IMG/VR virus record: IMGVR_UViG_3300021957_000113
Location: 1 to 38,412 of that record
Length of the DNA stretch: 38,412 bases
From: a virus
Reading direction: 5' to 3' (one strand)
The notes under the pieces are model-generated. The model was given only the letters and a program-made list of their open reading frames with translations, was not told where the DNA came from and made no database searches. Shown piece by piece: positions 2 through 26,837 of this stretch (position 1 is the first letter of the stretch; the number at the start of each line of letters is the position of its first letter). A program made the position numbers and the translations under genes.

Positions 2-727
2 GGAGATCCAAATGCAGGGAGTACCCCTCCCCCAGCTTTTGATCTGATGTCAGACTCTCTTCCAGGAGGATCAACAGAAGATGATACTCCTAAAGAGGAA
101 GGCGGAAAAGAAAAAGGCGGTTTGGTAGAGTCTATTAAAAAACTTGATACCGCAACTCTTGCCTCTGCTTCCGCAGTTACTGGTTTATTGTCCGGGGTAC
201 TAAAGAATACAAAAGCAGGAGAATTTTTAGCAAAAGTGACACAAACTTTACAGCTCGCTACAGTTTTACAGACTCTTTGGGACAAAACATTTGGTGTCAA
301 AAAGGTTGTTACAGATACTGCAAATACTGCAGCTATCGTGGCTAATACCGCGGCACTAACAGTGAGTTCAGTAACTGGACGTAATGGCGGCATATTTTCA
401 AATGGGTCAGTAGTTCAAGGATATTCAATGGGCGGGGTTGCTAGAGGATCCACTTCAGGCTATCCAGCTACGCTTCACGGAACAGAAGCTGTAGTTCCCT
501 TACCAAACGGAAAATCAATACCTGTAGAGATGGGTAAAGGTATGGGGGATACTAATAATGTTCAAGTAGGGGTTACTATTAATAATGACGGCTCATCTAA
601 TACTAGCACAGAACAAGATAGCAAGCAAGGTTCAGACTTAGGGAAACGAATTGCGATTGCAATTCAATCAGAACTTCAGAACCAAAAAAGACCAGGAGGG
701 ATTCTTAGCCCATTCGGAGGAGGGTAA
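2..727 (+). CDS. H: Tail tape measure protein, C-terminal part (5' end outside window)
   Basis: The reading frame is open from base 2 with no stop before the first ATG at 47, so this is the 3' end of a longer gene and not a 226-aa protein. The visible part has a Pro/Gly/Lys/Glu-rich linker, then a hydrophobic Ala/Thr-rich helical stretch (around LASASAVTGLLSGVL and ANTAAIVANTAALTV). It ends in the Gly-rich tail common in lambda-gpH-type tape measures, with GGIFSNGSVVQGYSMGGVA followed by HGTEAVVPLPNGKSIPVEM. Family knowledge: the protein sets tail length and is ejected during DNA entry. Position directly before gpM-like genes fits lambda order. The stop overlaps the next ATG (TAATG at 725-729), suggesting translational coupling. 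Confidence 0.88.
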   Translation, partial: GDPNAGSTPPPAFDLMSDSLPGGSTEDDTPKEEGGKEKGGLVESIKKLDTATLASASAVTGLLSGVLKNTKAGEFLAKVTQTLQLATVLQTLWDKTFGVKKVVTDTANTAAIVANTAALTVSSVTGRNGGIFSNGSVVQGYSMGGVARGSTSGYPATLHGTEAVVPLPNGKSIPVEMGKGMGDTNNVQVGVTINNDGSSNTSTEQDSKQGSDLGKRIAIAIQSELQNQKRPGGILSPFGGG

Positions 728-2481
728 TGGCTCTAGGATTTTTAGACTTACTTAGTACTCGTGTAGTACCCGATAAAAACTTTAAAAAGTCAGTAGAACC
801 TATTTACTCTTTAGTGTCTCATGGAGAGGGGTATGAAAGTAGGATCTCTGTAGGAACAAATAGTTTTAAAGAAACCTATCAACTAACTTTTACTAATAGA
901 TCTATAGGTGAGATAGAAAGAATTACAGGGTTTATTAATGAGAGGGAGAAGTATAAAAACTTTGTTTTTACAGTCCCCGACAGTAACGAAATATCAGGCG
1001 AAAAAGATTTAATAGTATACTGTGAAGGATACTCTAGAACATATGTAACAGATACTATAGGCTCGCTATCCTGCACCTTTATAAGAGTTTTCGAAGAGGA
1101 CAGCGCTTTATCCTCCGCCACTATATTAAACAGCAGTATCATTTTAGATGAAGGAGTTTCTGAAGTAATAAATGTCTCTACGTCTCAAAGAGGGGCAGAG
1201 ACTTTATATTGGACTTTAGACGGGGCTACAACCGCAGATTTTACTGCAGTAAGTGGTTCATTTTCAACAGGGGGCTCAATATCTACTGCTTCAGGTTCCT
1301 TTAGTATAGAAACTTTAAATGATACTACAACAGAAGGCGGAGAAGCATACACACTTAGTATCAGAACTGGCTCAACTGGAGGGCCAGTAATAGCAAGTAA
1401 ACAAGTACAGGTAATCGATACATCTAGAACTCCTCCCGCGTTTAATTGGACGAATAATAATGGGATTCCTATTACAGAAGTAACAACTCTTAAACAGTCT
1501 ACTGTTGAGATTGCTGCTAAGACTACTAACTTCGATAATAGTGAGCTTTTATATTGGAACTTTGATACGTCCTCTGGTAGTTACTTTCCTAGCTTAGGAT
1601 CACTAAAACTAGTGGGAACTTTCGCAGAGAGTTTGGCAAATCTTAGTCTTACCTCCACTGTTATAACAGAGCCAAAAACGGATATTATAACATTACGAAG
1701 AAATAGTATTTCAGGGCCAGTATTAGATACTATAACTATTTTAACTTTTCCTTTTATAGGAAGAAGGTTAGTAGACTCAAACGGTATAGAGCAACTATTT
1801 TTTAGGCTGTCCGACTTATCTAGCCCTGAGTATGTTCTTGATATGTATTGTACAGGAGTGGGAGTACCTGTAGAGCTTTTATATTGGACTATAGAAGGCG
1901 CAAGTCAAGGAGTAGACTTTGATTTTGTAGCCGGAAGTTTTACTCCTACGGGCACTTCTTCTATAAATACAGGGACTTTCCAACTAGTAGGAGTAGCCAC
2001 TGAAGATGCAAAGTCTTTTACTATAAACATTAGAACAGACAGTGTTTCTGGGCCTATAGTAGCCTCCTCTCTTATTTTTATTGCAAACAGTGAGATTGGC
2101 ATATTTGCAAAGAGTGATACTACTACTAATCAGTCAATAAGTCAATTTGAGTCAACCTCTCTACTAAGTGGCTCTACAAGGTTGAGTCCTATAATAGCGG
2201 GGCCCTTTTCTGACGAGAATATTACAAATCAATCAATAGGGATATCCGAGGCTGCGTCATTATTATCAGGAGATATACAAAGACAAACTGTACTTATATT
2301 TAGTGGAGGGCTGGATACTACTACTAATCAGTCAATAAGTCAATTTGAGTCAACCTCTCTACTAAGCGGCTATATAAGGTTGCGTCCTATAATAGCGGGG
2401 CCCTTTTCTGACGAGAATATTACAAATCAATCAATAGGCATACAAGAATCGCTATCTGTATCAATTATAACTAGGAATTAA
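727..2481 (+). CDS. gpM-like minor tail protein fused to Calx-beta-like arms (copy 1)
   Basis: Residues 1 to about 125 match the lambda minor tail protein M family (Phage_min_tail): GFLDL start, SHGEGYESRIS, TYQLTFTNRS, VFTVPDSNE and CTFIRVFE. Lambda gpM is only about 109 aa; here some 460 residues follow. They form at least three Calx-beta-like repeats, each with LYW near its start and RTGS..GPV near its end (about 138-235, 250-340, 350-455). The C-terminal 120 residues hold a 66-residue repeat with SISQFESTSLLSG and SDENITNQSIG. The N-terminus is closely related to the 576-aa protein and more distantly to the short gpM at 13146. Inference: the gpM domain docks at the tail tip and the extension carries the giant protein encoded next. 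The start overlaps the tape-measure stop by one base. Confidence 0.8.
   Translation: MALGFLDLLSTRVVPDKNFKKSVEPIYSLVSHGEGYESRISVGTNSFKETYQLTFTNRSIGEIERITGFINEREKYKNFVFTVPDSNEISGEKDLIVYCEGYSRTYVTDTIGSLSCTFIRVFEEDSALSSATILNSSIILDEGVSEVINVSTSQRGAETLYWTLDGATTADFTAVSGSFSTGGSISTASGSFSIETLNDTTTEGGEAYTLSIRTGSTGGPVIASKQVQVIDTSRTPPAFNWTNNNGIPITEVTTLKQSTVEIAAKTTNFDNSELLYWNFDTSSGSYFPSLGSLKLVGTFAESLANLSLTSTVITEPKTDIITLRRNSISGPVLDTITILTFPFIGRRLVDSNGIEQLFFRLSDLSSPEYVLDMYCTGVGVPVELLYWTIEGASQGVDFDFVAGSFTPTGTSSINTGTFQLVGVATEDAKSFTINIRTDSVSGPIVASSLIFIANSEIGIFAKSDTTTNQSISQFESTSLLSGSTRLSPIIAGPFSDENITNQSIGISEAASLLSGDIQRQTVLIFSGGLDTTTNQSISQFESTSLLSGYIRLRPIIAGPFSDENITNQSIGIQESLSVSIITRN
2116..2240 (+). repeat. 125-bp direct repeat, unit 1
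   Basis: This unit and the one at 2314-2438 are 125 bp each and differ at four positions by eye. They are offset by 198 bp, exactly 66 codons, so the frame is kept. They encode the DTTTNQSISQFESTSLLSG...SDENITNQSIG motif of the 584-aa protein. Confidence 0.92.
2314..2438 (+). repeat. 125-bp direct repeat, unit 2
   Basis: Near-identical partner of 2116-2240 and in the same frame. The 73 bp between them encode a more degenerate spacer (ISEAASLLSGDIQ...) that itself echoes the repeat, which suggests an older internal duplication. Confidence 0.92.
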
Positions 2482-2484
2482 TTA

Positions 2485-5400
2485 ATGAATATAAAAGGTT
2501 ACGTGGATATTTCTCTCTACAATGTAGAAACTGGCGAGCTAGAGCACGAGGAAAAAACTTGGCATAATGCTGTGCTGAACTCAAATCTTTTCATGCAGTC
2601 CCCTTTTTATTGGGGTAGCATAGGCGGATTGTCATATACTTCTAAAAAGTTCGTGTATAATATAGTATGTGGTGATTCTTATATCTCAAGTATTGATAAA
2701 AACTCTTTTGCCTACCCTGGTAGGTGGTATTTTACGGTGAATTTGGTCGGTGCGACTGCCCTTACTCAAGACGCAGACTATAATTCCGTAACTATGAGAA
2801 TTGTTAAAAAGCTGGATCCACCGACTCAGGCCGCGATTAGGAATATTCATAGTGTTGGTCTTAGCTATGATTCGGTCTCTACTACTGCGTTTCTACCGTT
2901 TATAACCGTAGCCAGTAACCCTACTCCTGTTGTACAGTCCTCCAGTCAATTCGCTATAATTCAATATACAGTTGTAATTCAATTAGGCCAAAGAAATGAC
3001 TGGGCAACAGAGTGGCTGAGTGCTATACAGACGTCCTCAACATACAATATGACTATTACGAATACCGGAAATAACCATCTCAATGTCCCTGGAGGCTTCA
3101 ATTATAGTACTTCAGTATCTGGTGGCTATCCAGTATCACTTTGGGCCGGCAGAACAGGTGCTTATAGAAACTGGGAAACGTGGTCCGGAGGTCATTTTTA
3201 CCCTAGAAGAAACCAGCCAATACTTTCCTGGACTGGTACTGACATTGCTAATAAACCAAACTCATTTGGATTTGTAACCTTTCAAAACGACCAGGAATTT
3301 TCTGGACAAGATAACGAGAACTACCGAGCGTGGGACCAACTAGGTTTTCATAAACTCGAACTTCCAATTGGATATGGAGGAGCTAGTTATGAGGGCCATA
3401 TAACTGGTTTTGTAGCGGGCGAAACTAGTCCAGGAGGTATAGTACATAATCCAGCAAGACTATTATCCGTAGGAGAAAACAAGACTCAAAATTATTATGG
3501 AAAAGTCAATAGCCCTACTGTACCTTTTTTCCTGGTAACCGAGTTGCCCTCTACTTCGGCGACTATTACCTTGGATACCTCTTTATATGACCCTAAGTAC
3601 CATGAGTTTTGGAAAATAGACTTTGGGGGCTCTACTGGCGGAGTGGGTACCGCTGAGTACTCTTTTATGAAACGCTACATTTCTAGCTTTGATGGAAATA
3701 CCTTCACCCCTAAGCTAATGAGCCACAATATAAAAAGCATAAATGGCGCGAACGGCAGTACTGAAAAATCCGCAGCAACCCAGCATAATGAAGTGACAAT
3801 CAACGGTACCAACATCCTTAAGTGGAGAGGTCCGCTTAGTCGTTTGGATGGCTATGAAGATTATGACACTAGCAACTCCAATAAGATTGGGTTATCGGGC
3901 CTCAGCACTGATTTCTTGATAAATAAAAATTGGGAAGGTAATATGCCTATAAGAATGTTTCCAGGGGATGATAGATATACTTATAATGTAACCCAAAAAG
4001 AAATAGTATTGTTAAGCTGGTTGAATGAGGAAATTATTAGAATTAATGTAATTAACTACCCCTCGTTCTCTCCTTCTAATATTTCAGGGTATGACTACGA
4101 TGAAGTATCTGATACTTTTTGGATTTCTTGCACAGACACGGGAATCTGGTCTGTATCGACTCCTTTAGGGTCTCCTAGTATAACTAACCATAACGTAGCA
4201 GGTCTTTCGAATGTTACCACCACCACTGAAAATAAAGCGTATACTTTAGATCTGGGAATAAATTTAGGCTCTTTTAGAACTGTTTGGGCTATGATCGAAG
4301 GTGCTTTAGTTAAGTCTACTGATAATGGGAGTACGTGGTCAGCTTACGATAGCACGAGTACAGGAGGCGTGTCCTTTACACAGACCAATATAGAAGCTCA
4401 ATGGAGCGTTACTATTGGTCTAAAAGCAGATAAAAATACAGACGGTAGACTATTGATATTTTATGCGGATGACCCTACAGGAACAGCGGCCAACTTATAT
4501 AGTATCAATTTTCCGAACAAGACTAGGCTAGTTACAACGGGAGCCACTTGGTGGAGCAGTCTTAATGATTGTACTAATTTATCCCCAACTAGTTCTAGTT
4601 TTAATTTATTTTATGAGAAAGCAAGCCCCGGCGCTAGTTCTACATTTTATAGTTTTGCTATACGTTATGAGTACACTACGTTTAATGATGCACTCGCAGA
4701 TACTCATGATATGAGCCTGATGAGAAGACTTTTTAGGTTTACTTACGGAGTGGGTAAGGCCCAGTCTACTTGGTGGATAGTAAGTTACGCTGAAGACGGC
4801 ACTCAGTCGGTTCCTGCGGGCTATGTGCCTCGGCAACTTTTTTTTGAAAGACAGCTCGGAGCTTCCCCAAGTGTTTTTGGTCAGTTTTCAAATCCAGAAA
4901 TAAAATATGTATCATCGGGCAGATCTGGCGGGCAATCGGCTTATGGAACGTTAAGAACAAGTGCTTTTAACTGGTTTCCTACACAGAGCCCAGCTCTTAA
5001 AACTGACCCTTGGTCGGTACCTTATGAGACTGTAGATGACGATAATAATGATGTACTACTAGTAGGTACCTCTTACAACGAGACTGTAACCGGTGCGGCC
5101 CCGGCTGCACCAGCCCGAGGGTTCTGGTTATTTAGATTTTCTACCGGATTAATTGCTCAACTCTCTGAAGAACTCTACTACTACCATTGGTATATTGGAA
5201 AAGGGTTGAGGTTTAATGGCGACGAGTATTCTCAGGTAGGGGATCAATATTATGGGTGGGATCCAGCCAATAGCATGATCAGTGAGATTTATGAAAGATA
5301 CGTATGGACAGGGTCAATCTGGAGACTAAGAACTAGTGACGCAGACCCTCTAACTTTAAAACCTACTCACTCTGGGACTGAACCTCTAATTGACGGGGCC

Positions 5401-6948
5401 ACTATTTCTTTTGATGACGATCTTGGGTCCTCCTCTTATACTTCAGGAGAGAGTATATCTGCCGTCGTATGCGATGGGATTATGAATGACCTTGCCGTAG
5501 GACTTACTACATACTACAGTGGTAAGAGTACTTACCCAAATGAATTTGTTAAAGAAGTAACAGGAGGAGTAATAGCTCAAAATAATCCTGGAAAGTTGGT
5601 TCCTTGGTGTTACCCCGCGGAGAGTTATAATGAAGAGCAGCACAACGTTAATAACCCCACACCCACTGCAGGCACCTTTAATACAGGTAGTTTTTTTAAT
5701 AATCGTTTTCTTGGTACTTATGGTATCAGTTCAGATTCTGTGGGGGGAGTACCAATCAATACTGGCTTCCTTTATAATCAGGGAGGTTTTCAGTCTTCAT
5801 CGTACCCGTACTACACTAAATTTAGGCTCAACACCAGTCAAACTGGGGTATCGTATAATGGGCCTGTTTCCGGAAGATATCTTTCAAATAGAATGTTAAC
5901 TACTGATGCCTTTTCGGGGGATTTTCTTCTAACTTCTTCTATTCTTGAGCCAAAGGCTGCAAATACCACTGTTCAGCCGTCGGACTTCTTGTTTTTTAAT
6001 ACTACTAACCCTTCAGTATCTCCCCCTACTACAGGATATAATATTGAATACGCTTATGGTTTAGCAGACGCAACTACATTTACAGACGGTCTTAGCCCCT
6101 CTACTTCAAACACTAACTGCTCAAGCTTTTCAGATATAAACTATGGGTTTAAGTTTAGAATGGCTGATAACTACGCGACTTTATTAGGTAAAGCTGGAGA
6201 ACCTACTACCTTCAGTTTTCAAACTACGGGAGATACGGGAGACACTTTGTATTACTCCCTTAGTAGTTGCCCTATAGTTATAGAAATTATTGAAGCAGGG
6301 GTTGTTAAACATACTATATCGGGAGAGACTGTAGGAAGTGTCTCACAACAAGCGGCTTCCGGTAATTTTGGCACAATTAGAGATCATGAACTTAATACAG
6401 GCACTGTCGGCTCTTCGATGTTCAAAAGTGGTGTGCTTACTCAAATGCAGTTTGGTAGAACGTTTCCTTTATTAACTCCTTGTGGTCTCAAAATAAAAAG
6501 AGTTGGTACCACTCTTTCTTACGAGTTCAGGGGACAGACAGTTTATACTTCTCTCGTCTCTAGCACTGAATCCTTAGTGCTTGTTGACTTTAGGTTTCAA
6601 AGGTTTTATAGTGGTATTGGTGAATTAAAAGATCGATATTCTTCTAGTTCGACCATACATGACATACAAATAGATGCGGGTAATGATTACTGGGTACAAG
6701 TGGGCACTTCTGGATCAGGCAACGGAATTTTTAACCCTGATTTTCTTTTTCTTCAAGTAGCCAATAGACAAGCTTTCTCAATAAAACTCGATGGTGTAGA
6801 GGCGGATGTAGTAGAATTAGATGACGCACAGACTCTAGTCGCGGGACAAGTATCCGTTTACCCTAGATCAGGCCTTATTCGCTGCGCAGCAGCAGACGCG
6901 GGTAAAACAGTTACTGTAAATATTCCCTGCGCGTACTTAGAGCAATAA
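2485..6948 (+). CDS. Giant putative tail fibre/receptor-binding protein (copy 1)
   Basis: A 1487-aa protein. The N-terminal 35 residues (MNIKGYVDISLYNVETGEL...) have the short beta segment often seen at the start of phage fibre proteins. Around residues 535-620 are propeller-like features: YDYDEVSDTFWISCTDTGIWSV and an Asp-box, STDNGSTW, at 611-618. The C-terminal part has RVGTTLSYEFRGQTVYTS (about 1334-1352), typical of concanavalin-like lectin folds in phage fibres. It ends in a conserved beta module (GLIRCAAADAGKTVTVNIPC). It aligns throughout with the 1486-aa protein. A shadow of AGGA precedes the ATG, three bases after the previous stop. Role is inferred: binding of surface glycan. No enzymatic residue set was recognised, so hydrolase activity is not claimed. 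Confidence 0.72.
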   Translation: MNIKGYVDISLYNVETGELEHEEKTWHNAVLNSNLFMQSPFYWGSIGGLSYTSKKFVYNIVCGDSYISSIDKNSFAYPGRWYFTVNLVGATALTQDADYNSVTMRIVKKLDPPTQAAIRNIHSVGLSYDSVSTTAFLPFITVASNPTPVVQSSSQFAIIQYTVVIQLGQRNDWATEWLSAIQTSSTYNMTITNTGNNHLNVPGGFNYSTSVSGGYPVSLWAGRTGAYRNWETWSGGHFYPRRNQPILSWTGTDIANKPNSFGFVTFQNDQEFSGQDNENYRAWDQLGFHKLELPIGYGGASYEGHITGFVAGETSPGGIVHNPARLLSVGENKTQNYYGKVNSPTVPFFLVTELPSTSATITLDTSLYDPKYHEFWKIDFGGSTGGVGTAEYSFMKRYISSFDGNTFTPKLMSHNIKSINGANGSTEKSAATQHNEVTINGTNILKWRGPLSRLDGYEDYDTSNSNKIGLSGLSTDFLINKNWEGNMPIRMFPGDDRYTYNVTQKEIVLLSWLNEEIIRINVINYPSFSPSNISGYDYDEVSDTFWISCTDTGIWSVSTPLGSPSITNHNVAGLSNVTTTTENKAYTLDLGINLGSFRTVWAMIEGALVKSTDNGSTWSAYDSTSTGGVSFTQTNIEAQWSVTIGLKADKNTDGRLLIFYADDPTGTAANLYSINFPNKTRLVTTGATWWSSLNDCTNLSPTSSSFNLFYEKASPGASSTFYSFAIRYEYTTFNDALADTHDMSLMRRLFRFTYGVGKAQSTWWIVSYAEDGTQSVPAGYVPRQLFFERQLGASPSVFGQFSNPEIKYVSSGRSGGQSAYGTLRTSAFNWFPTQSPALKTDPWSVPYETVDDDNNDVLLVGTSYNETVTGAAPAAPARGFWLFRFSTGLIAQLSEELYYYHWYIGKGLRFNGDEYSQVGDQYYGWDPANSMISEIYERYVWTGSIWRLRTSDADPLTLKPTHSGTEPLIDGATISFDDDLGSSSYTSGESISAVVCDGIMNDLAVGLTTYYSGKSTYPNEFVKEVTGGVIAQNNPGKLVPWCYPAESYNEEQHNVNNPTPTAGTFNTGSFFNNRFLGTYGISSDSVGGVPINTGFLYNQGGFQSSSYPYYTKFRLNTSQTGVSYNGPVSGRYLSNRMLTTDAFSGDFLLTSSILEPKAANTTVQPSDFLFFNTTNPSVSPPTTGYNIEYAYGLADATTFTDGLSPSTSNTNCSSFSDINYGFKFRMADNYATLLGKAGEPTTFSFQTTGDTGDTLYYSLSSCPIVIEIIEAGVVKHTISGETVGSVSQQAASGNFGTIRDHELNTGTVGSSMFKSGVLTQMQFGRTFPLLTPCGLKIKRVGTTLSYEFRGQTVYTSLVSSTESLVLVDFRFQRFYSGIGELKDRYSSSSTIHDIQIDAGNDYWVQVGTSGSGNGIFNPDFLFLQVANRQAFSIKLDGVEADVVELDDAQTLVAGQVSVYPRSGLIRCAAADAGKTVTVNIPCAYLEQ

Positions 6949-6949
6949 C

Positions 6950-8680
6950 ATGACAGTAGGATTTCTAGACTTAACTTCGACCCTTGTGGTGCCGGACAGA
7001 AACATAAAAAAGAATATAAAACCTTTATATTCTGTTATGTCTTTTGGTGACGGCTACGAAAACAGATTATCTCTAGGAACAGATGGTAGAGAGGAAACTT
7101 ATAATTTAACTTTTAATAATAGACCTATTGAAGAAATTACTGCGATAACCGGGTTTTTTGCTGATAGGTCTAAGTATAGAACTTTCGATTTCACTATTCC
7201 AGACAGTAATGAAATATCAGGTGAGAAAACTATTGTAGTATATTGCGATAACTATACTACTACGTATTTCAACGCAGATGTCGGTTCGGTAACTGCCCAG
7301 TTCGTAAGAGTATTTGAGTTAGTATCGGGAACTTCCGGAGTTAATATAAATAACCCTAACTTCTCTATGAATGAGGGCCAGACGAAAGTAGTAAATATAA
7401 GTAGCTTGGAGAGAGGACCAGAAATATTGTATTGGACTCTCGATGACGGAGCGTCCTTAGCAGACTTTGTAGAAGTGTCAGGGTCTTTTACTACTTCGGG
7501 AACCTTAACTCTGGCCTCAGGCAGTTTTCAGATAAGTACTTTGGCTGACGTAACAACAGAAGCGACCGAGCAATTTACATTACGAGTTAGATCGGGTTCT
7601 ATTGGTGGGCCGACATTAGACCAAATACTAGTAACGGTACAAGACACCTCCAGAGGTCCAGAGACGTTTAGCTTAGTAGATAATGTTGGCGCGGATTTGA
7701 CCGACGTGTTTATTCTAAAAAATACTTCAACAACTATATATGTCGAAGTATTAAATTATGAGCCCGTCAATGACTTGTATTGGTCTTTAGAAAACGGAAA
7801 TGGAGTAGTCACTCCTTCTACTGGAGTTATTAACTTAACAGGGAATTTCGCGTCTAGTACGGGTAATTTTTCTGTAAATGGTGCTGATATACTTTCGGAT
7901 CAAGTTCGTGTTTTACAACTAAGAAAAGATAGTGTAGCTGGCCCTATAGTTGATACTTTGAATCTTACTGTTCTTCTAGCCGCCGGGGGACAACTGACAA
8001 ACAGCCTATATCAACCAGTAGCTTCTTACTCAATAGGACCAAACAGTAGCCCAGAATTTATAATTACTGCTTACTTTAAGGGTACTTTTCTTCCTATTGA
8101 ACAAATTTATTGGACTATAGAGGGAGCTACGGCAGGGGTAGACTTTGTACTTGTACAGGGAACCTTCTTACCAGTAGGAAATGATATTAGCTCTACAGGA
8201 AGCTTTCAACTTGAAAAAGCTGTTCCTTCTCCGGAGTCTATTGAATACTGGGTATTAAACATTCGTACGACAGGCTATACGGGGCCTATTTTAGACACGG
8301 TAGACTTAGTTGTAGAGACATCAGGAACGCTGCTTCCGAGTATACTACCAGAAAGCATTACTCTGAGGGCCGATACAGACTTTACAGCCAGGATCAATGA
8401 TGCAATTCGTCTTCGATCTGTACCTGTTGCAGCTAACGAGTCCCTAATTATTTTTGGTACTGTTGATCAAAAGGCTCTAACTGAAACAGACATTACAAGA
8501 AACGAGCCCAAGCTCCTTAAACAGACCGAATCCTTAACTCTATCAGGAACTAACTTGGTAGAAGCAGAAATAAACAATGTTGTACGATTAGATACTATCG
8601 CTACAGCTCAAACAGAAACAGTGCAATTACAAGGTAAAACTACCTTTTCCGCGCAAATTAATAATATAACTAGGACATAA
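6950..8680 (+). CDS. gpM-like minor tail protein fused to Calx-beta-like arms (copy 2)
   Basis: Paralogue of the 584-aa protein at 727. Residues 1 to about 125 are again gpM-like (GFLDLTSTLVVPDRN, SFGDGYENRLSLG, TYNLTFNNRP, FTIPDSNEISGEK, FVRVFE). They are roughly 60% identical to copy 1 by eye. Calx-beta-like units follow, with LYWTLDDGASLADF, DLYWSLENGNG and IYWTIEGATAGVDF, each closing with a R.GS..GP element. The C-terminal 110 residues carry a short repeat of the form ESLxLxG...AxINxxxRL. It differs in sequence from the 66-residue repeat of copy 1, which may give each arm its own fibre partner (inference). There is one base between the previous stop and this ATG, and the Shine-Dalgarno is weak (GAGC). 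Confidence 0.8.
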   Translation: MTVGFLDLTSTLVVPDRNIKKNIKPLYSVMSFGDGYENRLSLGTDGREETYNLTFNNRPIEEITAITGFFADRSKYRTFDFTIPDSNEISGEKTIVVYCDNYTTTYFNADVGSVTAQFVRVFELVSGTSGVNINNPNFSMNEGQTKVVNISSLERGPEILYWTLDDGASLADFVEVSGSFTTSGTLTLASGSFQISTLADVTTEATEQFTLRVRSGSIGGPTLDQILVTVQDTSRGPETFSLVDNVGADLTDVFILKNTSTTIYVEVLNYEPVNDLYWSLENGNGVVTPSTGVINLTGNFASSTGNFSVNGADILSDQVRVLQLRKDSVAGPIVDTLNLTVLLAAGGQLTNSLYQPVASYSIGPNSSPEFIITAYFKGTFLPIEQIYWTIEGATAGVDFVLVQGTFLPVGNDISSTGSFQLEKAVPSPESIEYWVLNIRTTGYTGPILDTVDLVVETSGTLLPSILPESITLRADTDFTARINDAIRLRSVPVAANESLIIFGTVDQKALTETDITRNEPKLLKQTESLTLSGTNLVEAEINNVVRLDTIATAQTETVQLQGKTTFSAQINNITRT

Positions 8681-8683
8681 TCT

Positions 8684-11600
8684 ATGAAAATGAAAGGCTT
8701 TGTGAAAGTAACAAAAAAAGACGCTAATACGGGCGAAGAACTGTATGAGTCTGACTGGATAGAGAATATAATTTACGACGCTAACTTCACTAGCGCTATT
8801 AGCGCCATGTCTCTCAGTATACAAACTGTTCGCACTGGCGCGGCCGCAACAGCTGAATCAACCCAGGACCCCTATATAGCTTATTACCAATCTGCTGGAG
8901 CCAGTTATTTTACTCATTATATGTATGCTAATGATCACTATGAAGCTGCCCCTAGTAGTACTGTAAGATCTCAGCCGGGTAAGTTTTGGCAGTTTCAGAA
9001 AATTCAAGGAACCCCCTTTGCAGTAGTGGAAGGAAATGGTCAGACTACTACACCTACTCTTAAGCTCACTCAACAACTTCTTCCCCCCGTGTCAGGAACT
9101 CGTGATATTCATACTATAGGTTGGACACAATCGAGACCTACATATAAAGCCGGCTCCAAGAACAATATCGCAAGTAGACCAAAACCAAGAACGGCTGCTT
9201 CTTTTACACCAGCTATCACGCAATCTACTACAGAAATTCTTGTTGTGGTCTATAAAATAGAATTCACTTTCCCCACCTCATCAACTACTTTATCATATGA
9301 CCAAATGTCTGCTCTTACTTGGTTAATGTCGGGGGTACCTAACCCCACACCAGTACAATCTCTTGCTTATTACACAGGCAGCAGCAGCGCAAATATGAGT
9401 AACACTAGCATCTATACAAATGATACTAAGTATTCTCCTTTTAAAGTACCTCTTGCTAGTCGTAGGCCCAATACTACTTATGTCGCGGGTAAGCCCAATA
9501 CTGGTGGCCACCCAAGTATACAATACTGGGGTCAGTTGGAGACCAACGCTAATTTTTCTGGGCACCGTTGGGATGGTATTGTTTTCCTAAACTCCGCCGA
9601 GGTACAAACCACTGATACTAATGTAGGAGACTTCGTTAGCTCTATATCTGTCGTAGGAAGTGGTCAGTTCGATGCAGCCTGGGTAACTCGTATGATTGGT
9701 TCTAATACTAATAAGACTCAACAATATTATGGGAAAGTGTCTGGTGCTACCGTTCCCTTCTTCAGTGCTGGAGAAATACCGAATACGGATGCAACACTTA
9801 CTTTAGACACCACCCCATACTCTACTACTGTTTTTCCTGAACTATGGTCCATAGATATAGGTGGAGTAACTGGAGGGGTAGGAACGGCCGAATACTCGTT
9901 GAGAAAAAGATATGTAACTGGGTATGTAAATAATACCTTGGTACCAAGAATACAAGTTCTTCATAGCATTGCGGAGGCTAATGTACAAACTGTAAAAACT
10001 TATTCTGACTGGGGAGACCATACGGGCGACCTTGCGACTTCTGGGCGAGCCATTCTTAAGCAAGGAAGCGGCGCCATGGAAAACTACGGAAGGTGGGTAG
10101 TTCCAGGTAGTCCTCTAAAGCTCTATGATATGATCGAAGACAATGTACATTTCTATAATTTAGAGACCGGAGAGAATAGTGCTGTTAACATTCTACAGTA
10201 TCCTGCTTTTACCGCTACTAATATAGGGGGCCACGCGTATGATGAAATCTCTGATACTCTTTGGCTCGCTTGTCAGGATACCGGACTATGGAAAATAGCC
10301 AGTCCTTATTCAGCATCTCCAACTGTTAGTAACTTAGACTTGTCTTCTATATCAGATGTAGCGGCTACGGTAGCTAACAATGCTTATGTAGTCTGTTTAG
10401 GTCTCGCTGTAGGCGGGACTCATAGAACTGCTTGGGCTATGATGAACGGAGCTCTTGCAAAATCGACAGATAATGGAGCAACCTGGGTCGGTTATGATAG
10501 TACTAGTACTGGAGGGGTTACATTTACTCAAGCAACTATTGAAGGAAAATGGGCCGCAGTACTGTCTATGGTCGCTGATAAAAATACTGATAATAAATTA
10601 CTAGTGCTTTACGAAACTAACCCTAATTCTATTATGCTCTACACTGGCATATATCATTATGCTACAGTGAGCGGTGTATGGTGGGACAGTACTAGCGACA
10701 CTACACAATTAATGCAGGACTCAGGAGCTATTCCAATCTTATGGGCAGGTAGCTCTGGGGGTACTTCGAATAGAATCGGGTATGCTTTCTCCGACGGCAA
10801 CCAAGTACCTACACGTGTTACGATGGATGACTTCCTAATTCCCTGGGTTAGAAGAAACTGGGTGAATATGGTAGGTTGTACCAGAACTCAGAGCCATTGG
10901 TATATTGCTCATTTAAACACTAATCAGAGTAATTACCTTTCAGGGGGGACTAATAGAAATGCTCCTGTATTACTAACACATGGGACTCAAATTGGGCCCG
11001 CAGGTGCAGGCTATACTGAATTATTGACAGGCGATACTTTTCCTGAAAACTTTAGCGTCGGCTACCTCGCTCAATACTTCGGCCCTTATGGCCCGGCTAT
11101 TTTCACCCCTGCTGGCAGCCTTCGAAACAGTTTTCGGGAGTGGAATGTTCAATTTAACTACTCATATTGGCTGGGACATACAGAGCATGTCGATGATGAC
11201 GGTAATGACTGTATTATAAAAACTGGTTCAGATAGCGGTGGTACTTTTAGTTCACCAACCAATGTGTATAAATTTACGTTCACTACAAACAGGCTTGACA
11301 ACATGGCTATTAATGTCTGGACTGCGGAAAACGGTCACCAGACTCAGTATATTGGTAGAGGACTATTAATTACTTGTGGCAGTGACAAGTTTTATGTATT
11401 TCCCATATCTGATGGGACTATTGAAGGCGTATCTGCTGCTTCTAAGATGGCGGGCGACGTTTGGCAGAGATATGTATGGACCGGCTCTATCTGGAGACTT
11501 AGAACTAGTGACGCAGACCCTCTTACTTTGAAGTCTACTCATGGCACGACGGATGCTTTAATTGGGGGGGCTACTATTTCTTTTGATGATGCAGGCAGTA

Positions 11601-13144
11601 CTCAATCTTTTGTTTCAGGAGAGGCCATTTCCACTCATGTAGTAGATGGAATCGTAGCAGACTCGGCAACGTCTGTTAGGTCTTATAGCCCTACTCTCTC
11701 TATGTGGGATAATGAGATAGTTACGGAGGTTACAAACGGTACTATTGCTTCCTCAACTCCTTCAGAGCTTCTTCCCGTTACTTATTATGACAATGTTGAA
11801 TCTTCCGGAATTAGTCCAATCAACAACAGTGATGTTAGCGCCTCCGCTTGGGGATCCGCATTTGTAATTGAAGATACACGTTCCACAACTGCTTATTATA
11901 ATAAGCAAGGTTCCGGCGGCAAGATTGATTCAAGGAGAATGAATTCAGGTTGGAGCCATGGAGAGTATCCTGAATTTCGCTCACGCCTAGGGTTCACTGT
12001 GAGCAGCACGATGTCTAGTGCACCAATAGTTCATGTTAGTGCTAGGTATAATTCTTCAGAAGCTACAACAGGTGATTTTAATTTAGAGACTCATCTTTTA
12101 AATCCTGAAGGGCAATATGTGACGTCCTCTAGTGGTACTCCTTATGCCAGAGAATGGGGCTTGCTTGACCACAGAAATCAAGACGATGGTAATAACAACT
12201 GGAAAATAGAAACCGCTTTCGGGTTAGTAAACGCTGCTAGTTACACTGATGGTGCTTCACCAGCTCAGGGAGTGCTAGAGGAAGCGGAGATACTTTATGG
12301 ATTCAAAGTGATCCCTGGAAAACTTTTTGATAGTTTAATAACAAATTATTCTAGTTCTACCACTATTAACATGCAATCTGCGGTTGTTGAGGGAACTAAT
12401 ACATACTCTTATCAATCTGCAAATATTTCTGATATGATGAATGAAGGCGCACAATCTACCCCCATGACTATTCAGATAATAGAATCTGGAAGTGTAGTAT
12501 TCACTCAACCGGCAGGTGACCGGTACTATAGTGTAATATCTCTGTTTAATCCCCGAAGCAATAACAACCTACCCCTTGTTAATACGAGCTTAACCAGCGT
12601 GCTTCTCAGCAACACGAATTCAACGGACACAATCTTGGGTAACAGGGACGTTATAAATGATAGGTATTGTCCTTTTAATATAGAAAGAGTTGGTACCACT
12701 GTTAAGTATTATCTTCGTGATAAACTAATATATACCTCTTTAGCGAGTAGCAGCGAGAATCTAATGCCGGCTGTATTTACCAGTTTTGCAACCGCGGTAA
12801 GTATTGTTAATACGAGCGCTGCAACTCACGGGAACGGCAATTGGGGTCATATGCACGGACAAGTATTTAAAAAATCGCAAACGGATTTCTTTGTAAAGGT
12901 AGGAACTAGTGGATCTTCCAACGGGGCTTTTAACTCCAACTTCTTATACTTGCAAACCTCTGTAAGAGAGGGTTTTAGTATTAAAATTGATGGTGTAGAG
13001 GCTACTGTAGTGGGGCTCGAAGATAATGGGACGCTTAATGCAGGAGAAGTCTCCGTGTTCCCAAGACAAGGCCTAATTAGATGCTCTTCTGCTGATGCAG
13101 GAAAAACTGTAACCGTATCTATACCCTGCGCTTATAGGAGTTAA
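8684..13144 (+). CDS. Giant putative tail fibre/receptor-binding protein (copy 2)
   Basis: A 1486-aa paralogue of the protein at 2485. Shared landmarks: N-terminal MKMKGFVKVTKKDANTGEEL; KTQQYYGKVSGATVPFF and GVTGGVGTAEYSLRKRY near 345-410; the propeller-like YDEISDTLWLACQDTGLWKI; the Asp-box STDNGATW at 594-601; a 22-residue block starting at R929 identical to copy 1; lectin-like ERVGTTVKYYLRDKLIYTS; and the same C-terminal module (GLIRCSSADAGKTVTVSIPC). Segments outside these landmarks are strongly diverged in sequence and loop length, as expected for receptor-binding surfaces. It starts three bases after its partner's stop, with AGGA upstream. The function is inferred from architecture and context. 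Confidence 0.72.
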   Translation: MKMKGFVKVTKKDANTGEELYESDWIENIIYDANFTSAISAMSLSIQTVRTGAAATAESTQDPYIAYYQSAGASYFTHYMYANDHYEAAPSSTVRSQPGKFWQFQKIQGTPFAVVEGNGQTTTPTLKLTQQLLPPVSGTRDIHTIGWTQSRPTYKAGSKNNIASRPKPRTAASFTPAITQSTTEILVVVYKIEFTFPTSSTTLSYDQMSALTWLMSGVPNPTPVQSLAYYTGSSSANMSNTSIYTNDTKYSPFKVPLASRRPNTTYVAGKPNTGGHPSIQYWGQLETNANFSGHRWDGIVFLNSAEVQTTDTNVGDFVSSISVVGSGQFDAAWVTRMIGSNTNKTQQYYGKVSGATVPFFSAGEIPNTDATLTLDTTPYSTTVFPELWSIDIGGVTGGVGTAEYSLRKRYVTGYVNNTLVPRIQVLHSIAEANVQTVKTYSDWGDHTGDLATSGRAILKQGSGAMENYGRWVVPGSPLKLYDMIEDNVHFYNLETGENSAVNILQYPAFTATNIGGHAYDEISDTLWLACQDTGLWKIASPYSASPTVSNLDLSSISDVAATVANNAYVVCLGLAVGGTHRTAWAMMNGALAKSTDNGATWVGYDSTSTGGVTFTQATIEGKWAAVLSMVADKNTDNKLLVLYETNPNSIMLYTGIYHYATVSGVWWDSTSDTTQLMQDSGAIPILWAGSSGGTSNRIGYAFSDGNQVPTRVTMDDFLIPWVRRNWVNMVGCTRTQSHWYIAHLNTNQSNYLSGGTNRNAPVLLTHGTQIGPAGAGYTELLTGDTFPENFSVGYLAQYFGPYGPAIFTPAGSLRNSFREWNVQFNYSYWLGHTEHVDDDGNDCIIKTGSDSGGTFSSPTNVYKFTFTTNRLDNMAINVWTAENGHQTQYIGRGLLITCGSDKFYVFPISDGTIEGVSAASKMAGDVWQRYVWTGSIWRLRTSDADPLTLKSTHGTTDALIGGATISFDDAGSTQSFVSGEAISTHVVDGIVADSATSVRSYSPTLSMWDNEIVTEVTNGTIASSTPSELLPVTYYDNVESSGISPINNSDVSASAWGSAFVIEDTRSTTAYYNKQGSGGKIDSRRMNSGWSHGEYPEFRSRLGFTVSSTMSSAPIVHVSARYNSSEATTGDFNLETHLLNPEGQYVTSSSGTPYAREWGLLDHRNQDDGNNNWKIETAFGLVNAASYTDGASPAQGVLEEAEILYGFKVIPGKLFDSLITNYSSSTTINMQSAVVEGTNTYSYQSANISDMMNEGAQSTPMTIQIIESGSVVFTQPAGDRYYSVISLFNPRSNNNLPLVNTSLTSVLLSNTNSTDTILGNRDVINDRYCPFNIERVGTTVKYYLRDKLIYTSLASSSENLMPAVFTSFATAVSIVNTSAATHGNGNWGHMHGQVFKKSQTDFFVKVGTSGSSNGAFNSNFLYLQTSVREGFSIKIDGVEATVVGLEDNGTLNAGEVSVFPRQGLIRCSSADAGKTVTVSIPCAYRS

Positions 13145-13145
13145 T

Positions 13146-13541
13146 ATGACTTTAGGAGTACACTTAGACACGTCACCTGTAACTTATGTTAATCCTGATA
13201 GAAACATATCTAGAAAGGCTAATATTATGGCTCGACAGGTAAAAATACAGAACTATGAGCAGCGGGCGAGAGCAGGCATTAATCCTATAAAGGAAATGTT
13301 TAGTGTTAATTTTAAGAATAGAAGTAAAGAAACTATTGACACTTTAACTGCTTTTTTCCAAGCAAGAGAAGGCACTATTGCCTTCTCCTTTACTGTACCT
13401 TCTTCAGGAGGGGGAGAAGAAACTATTCAGGTAGTCTGTGAGAAATTCACTCAAACTTACTTTACAGAACAGTACGGATACTCTTGTTCTGCGACTTTTA
13501 GAAAAGTAAATGTACCGACATTTAATGGAGTAATACCATGA
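13146..13541 (+). CDS. M: Minor tail protein gpM (unfused)
   Basis: A 131-aa protein of ordinary length for the lambda gpM family, with the same landmarks as the fused copies: VNPDRNISRKANI, MFSVNFKNRSKETIDTLTAFF, IAFSFTVPSS and SCSATFRKV. Lambda gpM belongs to the tail-tip complex between the tape measure and gpL. Its place immediately before gpL makes this the likely canonical gpM, with the two fusions as derived copies. AGGAG stands just upstream of the ATG. The stop overlaps the gpL start by four bases (ATGA). Confidence 0.88.
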   Translation: MTLGVHLDTSPVTYVNPDRNISRKANIMARQVKIQNYEQRARAGINPIKEMFSVNFKNRSKETIDTLTAFFQAREGTIAFSFTVPSSGGGEETIQVVCEKFTQTYFTEQYGYSCSATFRKVNVPTFNGVIP

Positions 13542-14731
13542 CAGATATTATAAAAACAGCGCAGCTACAAGACCCAGGATCCTCAGTTATAGTATTGTAT
13601 GAATTAGAGTATGCAGAAGGATCATTCGCATATTTTTACGCTGGTAAAGCCGAGTTCGACGGGTCCACTCTAGAGAACGTCAGGTTTAGAGAGTGGCGGT
13701 CGGAATATGTAATTGGAGCAGAAATAGAGTATACAGCTATACCTATAGAAGCGGAAGGATTCGATATTAAAGCAGACGGTGCCATTACTAGACCGACACT
13801 ATCTATAGCTAATGTAGGAACTGCTCTTTCAGACTCTATTGGGGGATTAAATCTGCAGGATTTAGTAGGCTCAAAACTTACTAAACGAGTTACTCTAGAA
13901 AAGTACTTAGTGGGTAACTCCGGAGATGTAGGTGCGGGACTATCTCCCGTAGAGTACCCTAGAACTGTTTATTTCGTAGACAGAATAAAGTCTAAAAATG
14001 TTCTGAATGTAACTTTCGAGTTAGCAGCCCCTTTTGACTTACAGGGAGTTAGGCTTCCTCGAAGAGTTATAGTCGGGGGTGCTTGTCCCTTCAAATATAA
14101 AGGAGCGACCACAGACCTACCAGAAAATGTAAGATCAGGGGGCTGTGACTGGAACTCTAGATTCTTGAAAGATGGCTATGGCTCTAGACTTTTCTTAAAT
14201 GAGTTTGATGAGTATATAATTGGTATAGGATATGGAGGAGGCTTTACGCCTTGGACGGCAAGTTCAACTGCTGCTTCGTTATATACCACTGCTCAGGATT
14301 TAGATAGGTATAGTACTGACGGACTTACTGTAAGTACTGTTTCTAGCTTAAACTACTGGCAAGCTCTTACTTCTAGCTCTTCTCCTCCTTCTGATACAGA
14401 CAAAGTAAATTGGAGAAGAATCCGTACGTGGGCTCCCTTTTCTCCCGGCACAACTTATTATGGATATAAAAATACTAAGTTCAATGACTATGTACTTAAA
14501 GACGGAGTACTCTGGAAGATCAGACTTCTTAGTACTGATACTAGCGTTATAACAGAAGTTAAGGAAGGCGCCTACTGGACCGCTGGTGATGTTTGTGGAA
14601 AGAAAATTAAATCCTGCAGTTTACGTTACGGGGCTCAGGAAATATCTAACTCCTCCGTCCCTGCTCAGGCTATAGCAGCAACTCAATATTTAAGATTTGG
14701 AGGCTTTCCTGGTGTACAACAAAAGCGATAA
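13538..14731 (+). CDS. L: Minor tail protein gpL, iron-sulfur type, with long internal insert
   Basis: A 397-aa protein. The N-terminal 175 residues follow the lambda gpL pattern (LYELEYAEG, IEAEGFDIKADGAITRPTLSIANV, LPRRVIVGGACPFKYKG). Four cysteines fit the family's Fe-S set: C183, C203, C353 and C360. The last two keep the spacing seen in gpL (CGKKIKSC). C203 and C353 are separated by about 150 residues, much more than in lambda gpL. The insert holds SLNYWQALTSSSSPPSD and FSPGTTYYGYKNTKFNDYVLKDGVLWKI, which look like a CBM5/12-type carbohydrate-binding repeat. Lambda gpL is part of the tail tip. GGAG lies eight bases before the ATG. Confidence 0.87.
   Translation: MTDIIKTAQLQDPGSSVIVLYELEYAEGSFAYFYAGKAEFDGSTLENVRFREWRSEYVIGAEIEYTAIPIEAEGFDIKADGAITRPTLSIANVGTALSDSIGGLNLQDLVGSKLTKRVTLEKYLVGNSGDVGAGLSPVEYPRTVYFVDRIKSKNVLNVTFELAAPFDLQGVRLPRRVIVGGACPFKYKGATTDLPENVRSGGCDWNSRFLKDGYGSRLFLNEFDEYIIGIGYGGGFTPWTASSTAASLYTTAQDLDRYSTDGLTVSTVSSLNYWQALTSSSSPPSDTDKVNWRRIRTWAPFSPGTTYYGYKNTKFNDYVLKDGVLWKIRLLSTDTSVITEVKEGAYWTAGDVCGKKIKSCSLRYGAQEISNSSVPAQAIAATQYLRFGGFPGVQQKR
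14699..14714 (+). promoter_or_regulatory. Shine-Dalgarno deciding a GTG start for gpK
   Basis: GGAGG at 14699-14703 stands eight bases before GTG at 14712. It is the best ribosome-binding site near this gene. The alternative TTG at 14697 has no such site, and the GGAGG itself would be inside its coding sequence. The site lies inside the gpL reading frame. Confidence 0.75.
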
Positions 14732-15416
14732 AGAAATTTTAGAGCACTTAGTAAGTTGCTATCCGGAAGAAGGTTGTGGGATTATATTAAATAAGAGAGG
14801 TAAGTTAAAATGGATACCTTGCAAAAACGACGCTGAGGATCCTTTAAACTATTTTAAAATACCCGCAGAAGAATACATAAAAGCTTCTATGATGGGAGAT
14901 ATTTATGCAATTGTACACAGTCACCCAGACGATGAAAACGGTCTAAGCGAGAAAGATATAGCGGTAAGTAATTTTTTAGGGATACCTTACATTGCTTATT
15001 CAGTGCCAGGTTTTACAAAATTCATTCATACTCCGGAAAAGAAGGATACTCCCTTACTAGGAAGAGAGTATGATTTTGGTACAAACGATTGTTACTCTCT
15101 AGTTAGAGACTATTACAGAATTAAACTAAACACTATAATTCCAGCAATAGAATTTGAGGATAACTGGTGGTTAAAAGGGTTAAATTATTTTGATGATTTA
15201 TATGACTCCTTTGGCTTTATAGAGGTAGAAGAACCAAAAGAACATGATGTCATAATTTTTAGTGTGCTTTCAAAGGTACCTAACCATTGTGGTATTTATT
15301 TAGGTGAGGGTATTTTCATGCACCACGCAGAAAATAGACTCTCATGCAGAGAATCGCTATATTCCGGATGGAATAAGAACATAACGAGGTATATGAGATG
15401 CAAAAAGTTCATTTAA
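14712..15416 (+). CDS. K: Tail assembly protein gpK: JAMM peptidase plus NlpC/P60 domain
   Basis: A 234-aa protein read from GTG 14712. The N-terminal half is a JAB/MPN+ domain with the full metal motif H69-S-H71, S79 and D82 (HxHx7Sx2D), and an upstream Glu in CYPEEGCG. The C-terminal half is NlpC/P60-like, with the candidate nucleophile C127 in GTNDCYSLVRDYYR and a His in PNHCGIYLGEG. This two-domain layout is diagnostic of lambda gpK, which acts in tail-tip assembly and is thought to cleave protein and/or peptidoglycan. Both catalytic sets look intact. The gene overlaps gpL by 20 bases at its start and gpI by 19 at its end, so all three are probably translationally coupled. Confidence 0.9.
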   Translation: MYNKSDKEILEHLVSCYPEEGCGIILNKRGKLKWIPCKNDAEDPLNYFKIPAEEYIKASMMGDIYAIVHSHPDDENGLSEKDIAVSNFLGIPYIAYSVPGFTKFIHTPEKKDTPLLGREYDFGTNDCYSLVRDYYRIKLNTIIPAIEFEDNWWLKGLNYFDDLYDSFGFIEVEEPKEHDVIIFSVLSKVPNHCGIYLGEGIFMHHAENRLSCRESLYSGWNKNITRYMRCKKFI

Positions 15417-16114
15417 TAGGAGAAATTTCTAAATTCGGCAAAGTCTGGGACACTGACTGCGCTACAGTAGCGGATATTTTTAAGTTAATAGGGTGTCAAA
15501 CCCCTGGGTTCAGAAAGTATTTATTAGATAGTAAAGATTCAGATATTGCATTTGAGATACGAAAAGGTAAGGACATTTTAATGAATCCCGAAGACCTATA
15601 CCTGTCTACTGTAGCTGATGAGGATATTATCATAACAGAAGTACCTGATGGCGCTAAAGCCGGTTTAAAGATAGTTTTAGGGATTATTCTTGTTGTAGCC
15701 GGTTTCTTTGCTGGCCCGGCTGGTCCTTTTCTCTGGTCTACGGGGGCCTCTTTAATTGTGGGAGGACTCGTAGAGTTACTAGCTCCTGGCCCTGAGACTG
15801 AAGACGCGGACGACCCTTCTTACTTATTTGGTGGCCCCGTAGATAACGTAGCTCAGGGACTGGCAGTTCCAGTACTGTATGGCGAGCTAATTATAGGAGG
15901 AGGCGCTATATCTGCATACTATTCAAACTACCCAGTAAGAATTAATAATGGAATAGTAGAAGGGAACGGAACTTCTGGGTCAGGCCAGTCTTCTATTAAT
16001 TTTAATGGCGGAGAGGGGGGCGGTCCTGCTATTAATACCTCTACCAGCTTTTCTTTTGGACTGGCCGACGAGCTTATTACTCCAGACTTCAGTAAATTTG
16101 TCTTAGACGCATAA
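15398..16114 (+). CDS. I: Tail assembly protein gpI
   Basis: A 238-aa protein, close to lambda gpI in length (about 223 aa). The N-terminal 85 residues form a ubiquitin-like beta-rich region (VHLIGEISKFGKVWDTDCATVADIFKLIGCQTPGF...DLYLSTVADEDIIITEV). A hydrophobic Gly/Ala-rich segment follows (KIVLGIILVVAGFFAGPAGPF, then SLIVGGLVELL), and then the family signature YLFGGPVDNVAQGLAVPVLYGELIIGGGAISAYY. Lambda gpI is needed for tail-tip assembly but is not found in the mature tail. The hydrophobic stretch may cross or perturb a membrane (inference). Its position between K and J is the standard order. Confidence 0.9.
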   Translation: MQKVHLIGEISKFGKVWDTDCATVADIFKLIGCQTPGFRKYLLDSKDSDIAFEIRKGKDILMNPEDLYLSTVADEDIIITEVPDGAKAGLKIVLGIILVVAGFFAGPAGPFLWSTGASLIVGGLVELLAPGPETEDADDPSYLFGGPVDNVAQGLAVPVLYGELIIGGGAISAYYSNYPVRINNGIVEGNGTSGSGQSSINFNGGEGGGPAINTSTSFSFGLADELITPDFSKFVLDA

Positions 16115-23561: not shown

Positions 23562-24208
23562 TGAAAATATTAAATTCAAATAGCGGCTGTTACCTAACCG
23601 AAGTAAAAGAAACTTTTTCAGATGCGGAAACCTTAAACAGTATTTTTAAAGATTATTTATTCCCCAGGAATTTAAACTCTTGCTTGTCTATGTGTAGTAT
23701 ATCAGAGCAAACTCTAAATGATGCTAGAATAGTACTTAGTCCTCCCCCTAGAATTAGCTCTGGGGTGTTCTTCTTGTGTAATTCTTCTGACGAAAAAGTG
23801 GGGGCAATTAATTTTACGTTTAGCGATCATGGAAGTACTAATACTACTTACTTAACTAAAGTTAAAGCGGTAATTAAAGGGACTGAAAGAGGGAGGGGGT
23901 ACTTTACAGAGATGTTTTTTCTTATCTCTTGGTTTTCAAATCAGTTCCTACAGTGCGACAAGGCTCAAGTAGGGGTAGTAGACTCTGCACCTCAAGTAGC
24001 AAAAAAATTAGACGAAAGAGCTATAACTAATTACGAAACTACCGATACTTCTAGTAACAATATCGCTCCCTATGACTCCGTAGTACAAAAAAGCATTAAT
24101 ATTACTGATTATGCGGGATCTTTTTCTGAAGCAGATTGGGCTCCTTTCTCTTTAACAGTAGGGGGTACACCTGTACCTATTCCTACTAAGGGTGTAGCAG
24201 GATTCTAA
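23561..24208 (+). CDS. GNAT-like acetyltransferase-fold protein
   Basis: A 215-aa protein. The middle has the order of a GNAT fold: a strand VGAINFTF, then VKAVIKGTERGRGYFTEMFFLI, in which R110-G-R-G-Y-F resembles the acetyl-CoA pyrophosphate loop (Q/RxxGxG/A). A later strand KAQVGVVDS and helix APQVAKKLDERAITNY sit where the GNAT N..A..LY.K.GF motif would. The last 60 residues look like a separate beta tail (FSLTVGGTPVPIPTKGVAGF). The substrate is unknown; modification of a tail protein or self-attachment to the fibre are both conceivable. GGAGG precedes the ATG. It is the last gene before the only clear internal promoter. Confidence 0.45.
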   Translation: MKILNSNSGCYLTEVKETFSDAETLNSIFKDYLFPRNLNSCLSMCSISEQTLNDARIVLSPPPRISSGVFFLCNSSDEKVGAINFTFSDHGSTNTTYLTKVKAVIKGTERGRGYFTEMFFLISWFSNQFLQCDKAQVGVVDSAPQVAKKLDERAITNYETTDTSSNNIAPYDSVVQKSINITDYAGSFSEADWAPFSLTVGGTPVPIPTKGVAGF

Positions 24209-24254
24209 CTATTAAGGCTCTAAAAATAAAAATTAAGCAGCCAAAAAATAATTC

Positions 24255-24283
24255 TTGACATTAATCTATTAGGTTGTTATAAT
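24255..24283 (+). promoter_or_regulatory. Consensus sigma70 promoter
   Basis: TTGACA at 24255-24260, exactly 17 bp of spacer, then TATAAT at 24278-24283. Both hexamers match consensus at every base. The promoter lies in the 131-bp gap between 24208 and 24340, the longest non-coding stretch in the window. Expected initiation is near 24290, which leaves a leader of about 50 nt before the 24340 start. The upstream A/T-rich DNA (24220-24250) could act as an UP element (inference). Confidence 0.85.
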
Positions 24284-24339
24284 TTTCATATTCTTAAAGT
24301 TTCGTTCCAGAAACAAGTCTTATCCGGAAACAAATTTCT

Positions 24340-26798: not shown

Positions 26799-26801
26799 TT
26801 A

Positions 26802-26813: not shown

Positions 26814-26837
26814 AAGGCTTATTAAAGGAAATTAATA

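Follow-up and report, generated by a model that had tools for sequence, protein, structure and literature searches.

In phage lambda, the side-fibre genes (stf/tfa) are located after J, and a single gene between the tape measure and gpL codes for gpM (PF05939; 8iyk_M), a protein of 109 aa without any arm. The same domain is found at the same place in the DNA analyzed here, the 38.4-kb virus contig IMGVR_UViG_3300021957_000113 from IMG/VR (positions 1 to 38,412, taken as a whole and called the window; GC content 41%), but in three copies, two of which carry an arm and are each accompanied by a fibre gene. Lambda gpM has been shown to form a hexameric ring, with six copies in two alternating conformers, between the tube and gpL/gpJ; its beta-sandwich points toward the tube and its E-loop toward the gpL/gpJ hub, which is trimeric (PMC10721106). 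Considered as a whole, the array of the window is likely best explained by copies of gpM which have become sockets for fibres, the distal part of each arm forming a recombination module together with its fibre.

The principle of a distal-tail ring used as a fibre platform is already known, and so are extra paralogous rings. In lactococcal phages p2 and TP901-1 and in staphylococcal phage 80alpha, the rings formed by the distal tail protein (Dit) hold receptor-binding proteins and, like the armed gpM copies of the window (hereafter Marm1 and Marm2), combine a distal-tail ring with an arm or platform role (PMC7291167). However, the C-terminal domain of the p2 and TP901-1 Dit is of galectin type and its arm, if any, is short, while Marm has three immunoglobulin (Ig)-like domains and repeats. 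In addition, these systems have a single Dit gene and Gram-positive hosts, in contrast to the two armed paralogues and the lambda-type tip found here. The outward extension typical of a Dit platform is present in Marm (three Ig-like domains and a tail), and regarding the holding of a receptor-binding protein by this extension, joint exchange and class pairing are observed, from sequence alone. "Evolved Dit" with carbohydrate-binding modules are, like Marm, distal-tail proteins enlarged by surface-directed domains, but their extensions are held to bind sugars themselves, unlike the fibre socket proposed for Marm. To our knowledge, no "evolved Dit" is duplicated and paired with a fibre gene.

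In phage T5, p140 forms an extra paralogous ring and the Ig-fold collar p132 holds the L-shaped fibres (LTF) (PMC10038345). The likeness to the window lies in an extra tail-tip ring that stems from a duplicated tube-fold protein and in Ig-like subunits that anchor side fibres, as would those of Marm. Nevertheless, p140 originates from the tube protein and there is one fibre set, anchored by a collar whose Ig fold lies in a protein of its own (p132) surrounding the extra ring of tube-type protein, whereas in the window the Ig-like domains are fused to gpM. The authors of the T5 study considered that anchoring would occur differently in lambdoid phages (PMC10038345). A gpM-like protein with a decoration domain, as in Marm, is gp24 of Alishewanella phage LSH1, but it is present in one copy, its domain is N-terminal and galactose-binding-like, and the accessible part of the report describes no paired fibre gene (PMC13243795). 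As far as our searches reach, it is new that gpM is triplicated in a tip of the lambda type, that an Ig-like arm ending in a repeat tail is fused to it, that genes are paired one to one and that there is evidence for modular exchange.

The gene order at 2-21834, tape measure–[Marm1–fibre 1]–[Marm2–fibre 2]–M–L–K–I–J, is that of a lambda-type tail-tip operon, and the five open reading frames lying from the 3' end of the tape-measure gene (2-727) to L (13538-14731) adjoin one another. An earlier note, made from the letters of this DNA, had given these coordinates and this order, together with a fibre size of about 1490 aa; open reading frames, Pfam and PHROGs agree with the former, and fibres of 1487 and 1486 aa with the latter. 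The features are as follows:

2..727, plus strand: tape-measure protein, C-terminal end (PHROG tape-measure profiles, best 9e-12; the 5' part is lost at the contig end)
727..2481, plus strand: Marm1, 584 aa, gpM domain, three Ig-like domains and four-repeat tail (PF05939 5e-12, aa 15-122; PHROG_14; AlphaFold2 (AF2) model of the paralogue Marm2; repeats)
727..1092, plus strand: Marm1 gpM domain, aa 1-122 (PF05939)
2092..2478, plus strand: Marm1 C-terminal tail, four repeats, period 33 with a superperiod of 66 (repeat analysis)
2485..6948, plus strand: fibre-like protein 1, 1487 aa (one Asp-box, STDNGSTW; propeller-like region; conserved 85-aa C-terminal domain)
6950..8680, plus strand: Marm2, 576 aa, gpM domain, three Ig-like domains and four-repeat tail (PF05939 1.1e-11; AF2 model m26490396d219)
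6950..7315, plus strand: Marm2 gpM domain, aa 1-122 (PF05939; AF2; direct match to 8iyk_M, E 0.0035)
8324..8677, plus strand: Marm2 C-terminal tail, four repeats, period 29 (AF2 confidence, pLDDT, < 32; repeat analysis)
8684..13144, plus strand: fibre-like protein 2, 1486 aa (30% identical to fibre 1)
13146..13541, plus strand: short gpM, 131 aa, without arm; putative E-loop tip (FGDG) lost (PF05939 2.1e-14; per-column comparison)
13538..14731, plus strand: gpL homologue, 397 aa (PF05100 8.8e-25, phrog_18)
14697..15416, plus strand: gpK homologue, JAB and NlpC/P60 (PF00877, PF14464, phrog_30)
15398..16114, plus strand: gpI homologue (phrog_32 6e-39)
16129..21834, plus strand: gpJ homologue, 1901 aa, central hub/fibre (phrog_31 4.7e-131, PF13550)

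That three gpM domains, two of them in fusions, stand in one tail operon had been proposed in the same note, with the failure of the fused N-termini to match gpM by profile as a possible refutation. The search was run, and all three copies match PF05939 (Phage_min_tail, i.e., gpM) above its curated cut-off of 39 bits, with 49.9 bits for Marm1, 49.3 for Marm2 and 53.9 for the short M. A profile built from the family also matches the solved lambda gpM (8iyk_M) with an E-value of 1.1e-9, and the genomic place of lambda gpM, from tape measure to gpL, is held by the window copies (PF05100 and tape-measure profiles). The PF05939 scores of all three copies in phages with the cassette range from 32 to 55 bits, versus 74-89 in single-gpM relatives, and the short M of some relatives, at 33-34 bits, falls under the cut-off.

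The arm of Marm2 was modeled by AF2 with 22 related rows. In this model, a gpM-like domain (aa 1-122), beta-rich with one helix, is followed by Ig-like domains at 130-232, 239-342 and 346-456, with pLDDT mostly at 75-95, while the tail (459-576) is without resolved structure. The Ig-like domains of the arm can be aligned with one another and constitute a single repeat family. The size of the arms, put at about 450 residues by the earlier note, is upheld, and their finer make-up amounts to ~335 aa of three Ig-like domains plus a repeat tail of ~120 aa. By autocorrelation, the tails of the four Marm1 copies have a period of 32-33 residues, with a superperiod of 64-66, and those of the Marm2 copies a period of 28-30; periodicity exceeds that of shuffled sequence in nine of ten tails, the exception being the Marm2 tail of contig L006. 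By eye, each tail contains four repeats of ~28–33 residues, and a conserved I-T-R-T-like motif closes the tail. Foldseek searches with the Marm2 model returned mostly generic multi-Ig proteins; the top viral structural match was BFVD D6PIG8 (564 aa, viral, unnamed; E 1e-15, 431 columns), which may be, judging from the models, another arm-bearing gpM. The Marm1 tail also contains two 129-nt repeats (2116-2244 and 2314-2442) which are 96% identical, and similar internal homogenization is seen in the tail of contig L007, while tails vary between phages; the tail repeats thus seem to be homogenized within each gene. The C-terminal third of J shows, by eye, beta-rich Ig/Calx-beta-like repeats resembling the Marm Ig-like domains, for which a profile search gave no confirmation.

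Alignment of the fusions and of the fibres, as the earlier note had suggested, identifies both as paralogous pairs, with 44.6% identity between Marm1 and Marm2 over aa 1-448 and 30% between the fibres over their full length. Features common to both fibres are an N-terminal motif, a single Asp-box within a propeller-like region, and the 85-aa C-terminal domain. Large proteins of Alteromonas phage vB_AmeP-R22Y and of the jumbo Xanthomonas phage XacN1 have related C-termini; these are the two phages to which fibre 1 has a partial match. No Pfam family was found in the fibres above cut-off and no relative of solved structure by profile search. The Foldseek matches of the fibre 2 model (GH74, DPP4 and sortilin) hint at a beta-propeller at aa ~470-680. 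The nonsynonymous share is far higher in the fibres than in the core genes, which fits host-contact proteins, although recombination and young divergence can also inflate this share. As a separate observation, a stretch of ~122 bp (RLRTSDADPLTLK..THGTTDALIGGATISFDD) in fibre 2 of the window (11468-11589) is 94% identical to fibre 1 of contig L005 (8350-8471), and the same stretch is 82% identical between fibre 1 (5296-5417) and fibre 2 of the window; it looks like gene conversion between the two fibre genes.

Surveys of gpM neighborhoods, bounded by their search patterns and non-exhaustive, support that a single short gpM is usual at this place. The nearest relatives by L (43-50%) have a single M of 120-125 aa directly between tape measure and L; each of 79 further IMG/VR loci with this gpM type has exactly one gpM (122-143 aa); 15 genomes with related tails and 369 genomes of one class contain only single gpM frames, of 111-178 residues and one per tail region; and the cultured-phage matches inspected are single short M genes. 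All other neighborhoods surveyed therefore have one gpM of ~110–180 aa; a single short gpM at this place is what the earlier note had stated for lambda-type tails. Its author knew of no described equivalent of the array, and this holds within the searches made. The arm had no match in cultured phage records; tblastn against 50,697 phage records gave gpM-domain matches only for Marm1 and Marm2, two weak matches for fibre 1 and none for fibre 2; scanning genome contigs with the Marm alignment revealed no relative; and literature searches for duplicated gpM or Dit returned nothing of use. In contig L017, M and L are separated by an insertion of ~275 bp (1343-1619), whereas the two genes overlap by 4 bp in relatives.

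The search for the same array in related phages, also proposed earlier, retrieved it from diverged IMG/VR contigs. L004 (near-identical), L005 (~88%) and L007/L008 (Marm 46-59%) carry the complete double cassette, while L014/L031 have a double cassette in which a divergent fibre 2 of 1859 aa takes the place of the usual one, and L006, L027 and L033 contain cassette parts as far as these contigs reach. In L031 (16130-21709; also L033 and L042), the 1859-aa fibre 2 has a large N-terminal insertion, and the Marm2 arm next to it is divergent as well. A tree of gpM domains separates the arm copies (100/100) from the short M of cassette phages (100/100), each set being a clade. Within the former, Marm1 copies cluster (80/86), as do most Marm2 copies, the L014 copy being unplaced. 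In full-length trees of Marm and of the fibres, copy 1 groups with copy 1 (99/99 and 100/99). By these trees, the duplication is old, not recent: since copy 1 groups with copy 1 across lineages, it predates the divergence of the cassette lineages. A gpM at the start of contig L041 (25-393) groups with the short M of cassette phages, with an L only ~52-55% identical, and the cassette may extend to this more distant lineage. A false tandem duplication created by metagenome assembly, conceivable for an uncultured contig, has next to no probability: identity between the copies is a mere 30-45%, and several metagenomes yielded contigs with the array, showing old copy-specific divergence. These independent contigs with the same array refute it.

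The main evidence for a link between arm and fibre comes from exchange events. DNA identity between L006 and L007, which originate from different metagenomes, is 98.4% up to the end of fibre 1 (the portion of fibre 1 in L006 being nearly identical to that of L007) and over Marm2 aa 1-456, i.e., as far as the end of Ig-like domain 3. A diverged block composed of the Marm2 tail and fibre 2 aa 1-1383 follows, and high identity (97.8%) returns with the final 85 residues of fibre 2, continuing into J. Between the window and L005, M, L, K and I have a synonymous difference of 0.66. In Marm1 the value is 0.56 for aa 1-250 but drops to 0.02 for aa 251-584, and fibre 1 has 0.06; in Marm2 it falls from 0.60 to 0.11 at the same point as in Marm1, and fibre 2 is mosaic (0.18). 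As read from these boundaries, the exchanged unit is the distal arm plus the fibre. In both cassettes, the low synonymous difference of this unit therefore indicates a shared history more recent than that of the gpM domain, the short M and the hub genes. The distal part of Marm moves with the fibre while the gpM domain stays with the hub, as expected if the tail, perhaps with the outer Ig-like domains, holds the fibre; this pattern supports such docking rather than proving it. A second and partly independent line of support is that, across lineages, fibres fall in clades matching their Marm tail class, copy-1 with copy-1 and copy-2 with copy-2.

These data also bear on an unlikely alternative, according to which Marm is a decorated ("evolved") distal-tail protein binding the cell surface by itself, the large proteins being attached elsewhere. 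Weak binding to surface sugars has been suggested for Ig-like decorations of tail proteins (PMC10721106), decorations of distal-tail proteins without fibres are known (LSH1 gp24, PMC13243795), and tail and fibre are both variable. However, each tail class keeps its fibre partner across lineages, the two being exchanged in a single block, and in L006/L007 the Ig-like domains are constant while the tail changes along with the fibre.

Per-column comparison of the gpM domains revealed a complementary loss of conserved residues. The arm copies retain P25, G33, E62, I66, R120, E123 and, in substance, the FGDG tip, all of which are absent from the short M, while the short M retains D64, G75, V98, Q104, C114 and R119, which the arm copies lack. 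In our reading of the AF2 strand order and of the alignment to lambda gpM, the FGDG segment corresponds to the tip of the E-loop. From this complementary loss we infer that the copies are probably not interchangeable and occupy different places. It thus speaks against one shared position, as would be needed if the three gpM-type proteins competed for the same ring and virions of one phage differed in their fibre sets; three paralogues in one operon are compatible with such interchangeable tips, but the short M has no fibre, and we regard this as very improbable. More credible, though still doubtful, is a mixed ring in which Marm1 and Marm2 (or Marm and M) alternate in one hexamer, which would position each fibre set three-fold over the trimeric hub. 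Indeed, two conformers alternate in the lambda hexamer, which contacts a trimeric hub (PMC10721106), and Marm1 and Marm2 retain the same ancestral positions, including the E-loop tip, in which the short M differs. Nevertheless, the copies have diverged at many conserved positions, and the loss of different ones in the short M and in Marm fits different neighbors better. We tentatively favor separate stacked rings over a mixed ring. When used to order the rings, residue retention gives the non-equivalence of the copies but no order; gene order suggests tube-Marm1-Marm2-M-hub, while the E-loop tip retained in the arm copies would place these nearer the hub.

In the socket mechanism that we propose, the distal-tail ring protein gpM would have been copied in a lambda-type tail, Marm1 and Marm2 becoming sockets. 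The gpM domain of each Marm would join the ring system of the tail tip, the three Ig-like domains would reach outward, and the four-repeat tail would hold the product of the next gene, a fibre-like adhesin of ~1490 aa; the unarmed copy would keep a separate place in the ring system. With the distal arm and fibre acting as a recombination module, the phage could change one fibre set while the rest of the tip is kept. A tip made of three successive gpM-type rings, two of them sockets with independently exchangeable modules, so that one virion would bear two side-fibre sets and either could be changed without rebuilding the tip, is put forward tentatively, with somewhat less than even confidence. 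The role of gpM domains as adaptors for extra side fibres, as advanced in the earlier note, thus gains support from joint arm/fibre exchange and class pairing, whereas ring assembly, the docking of fibre to tail and the adhesin function are inferred.

Several points weigh against this mechanism. Adjacent genes may be co-exchanged by hitch-hiking without contact between their products, and breakpoints fall where homology is available. The short M has lost the E-loop tip, which in lambda faces gpL/gpJ, a poor fit to stacking in gene order. AF2 modeled aa 1-1200 of fibre 2 poorly, with a mean pLDDT of 42 and better values only at ~470-680, and the term "fibre" is deduced from size, position, variability and the propeller-like patch, "large tail adhesin" being a safer name; a globular or propeller adhesin is also conceivable. 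Finally, every cassette member is known from metagenomes.

Downstream of J, about ten genes (21846-32753) have almost no database matches, apart from one matching phrog_1645 (virion structural) and one matching phrog_1084 (unknown function). On the minus strand (33305-38351), a ribonucleotide reductase small chain and an SbcC-like subunit were recognized by profile and a ribonucleotide reductase large subunit by eye, along with a flap endonuclease that shares 44-45% identity with its counterparts in large Vibrio and enterobacterial phages (114-128 kb). Because of these genes, the contig probably represents part of a larger lytic genome.

The anchoring of side fibres in lambda-type tails is unsettled, the lambda structure having been obtained from a fibreless strain (PMC10721106). 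The array described here offers a candidate supported by sequence, gpM as the socket, and its natural swap boundaries, from the end of Ig-like domain 3, or from the Ig1/Ig2 region, to the end of the fibre, separate the constant from the co-travelling parts.

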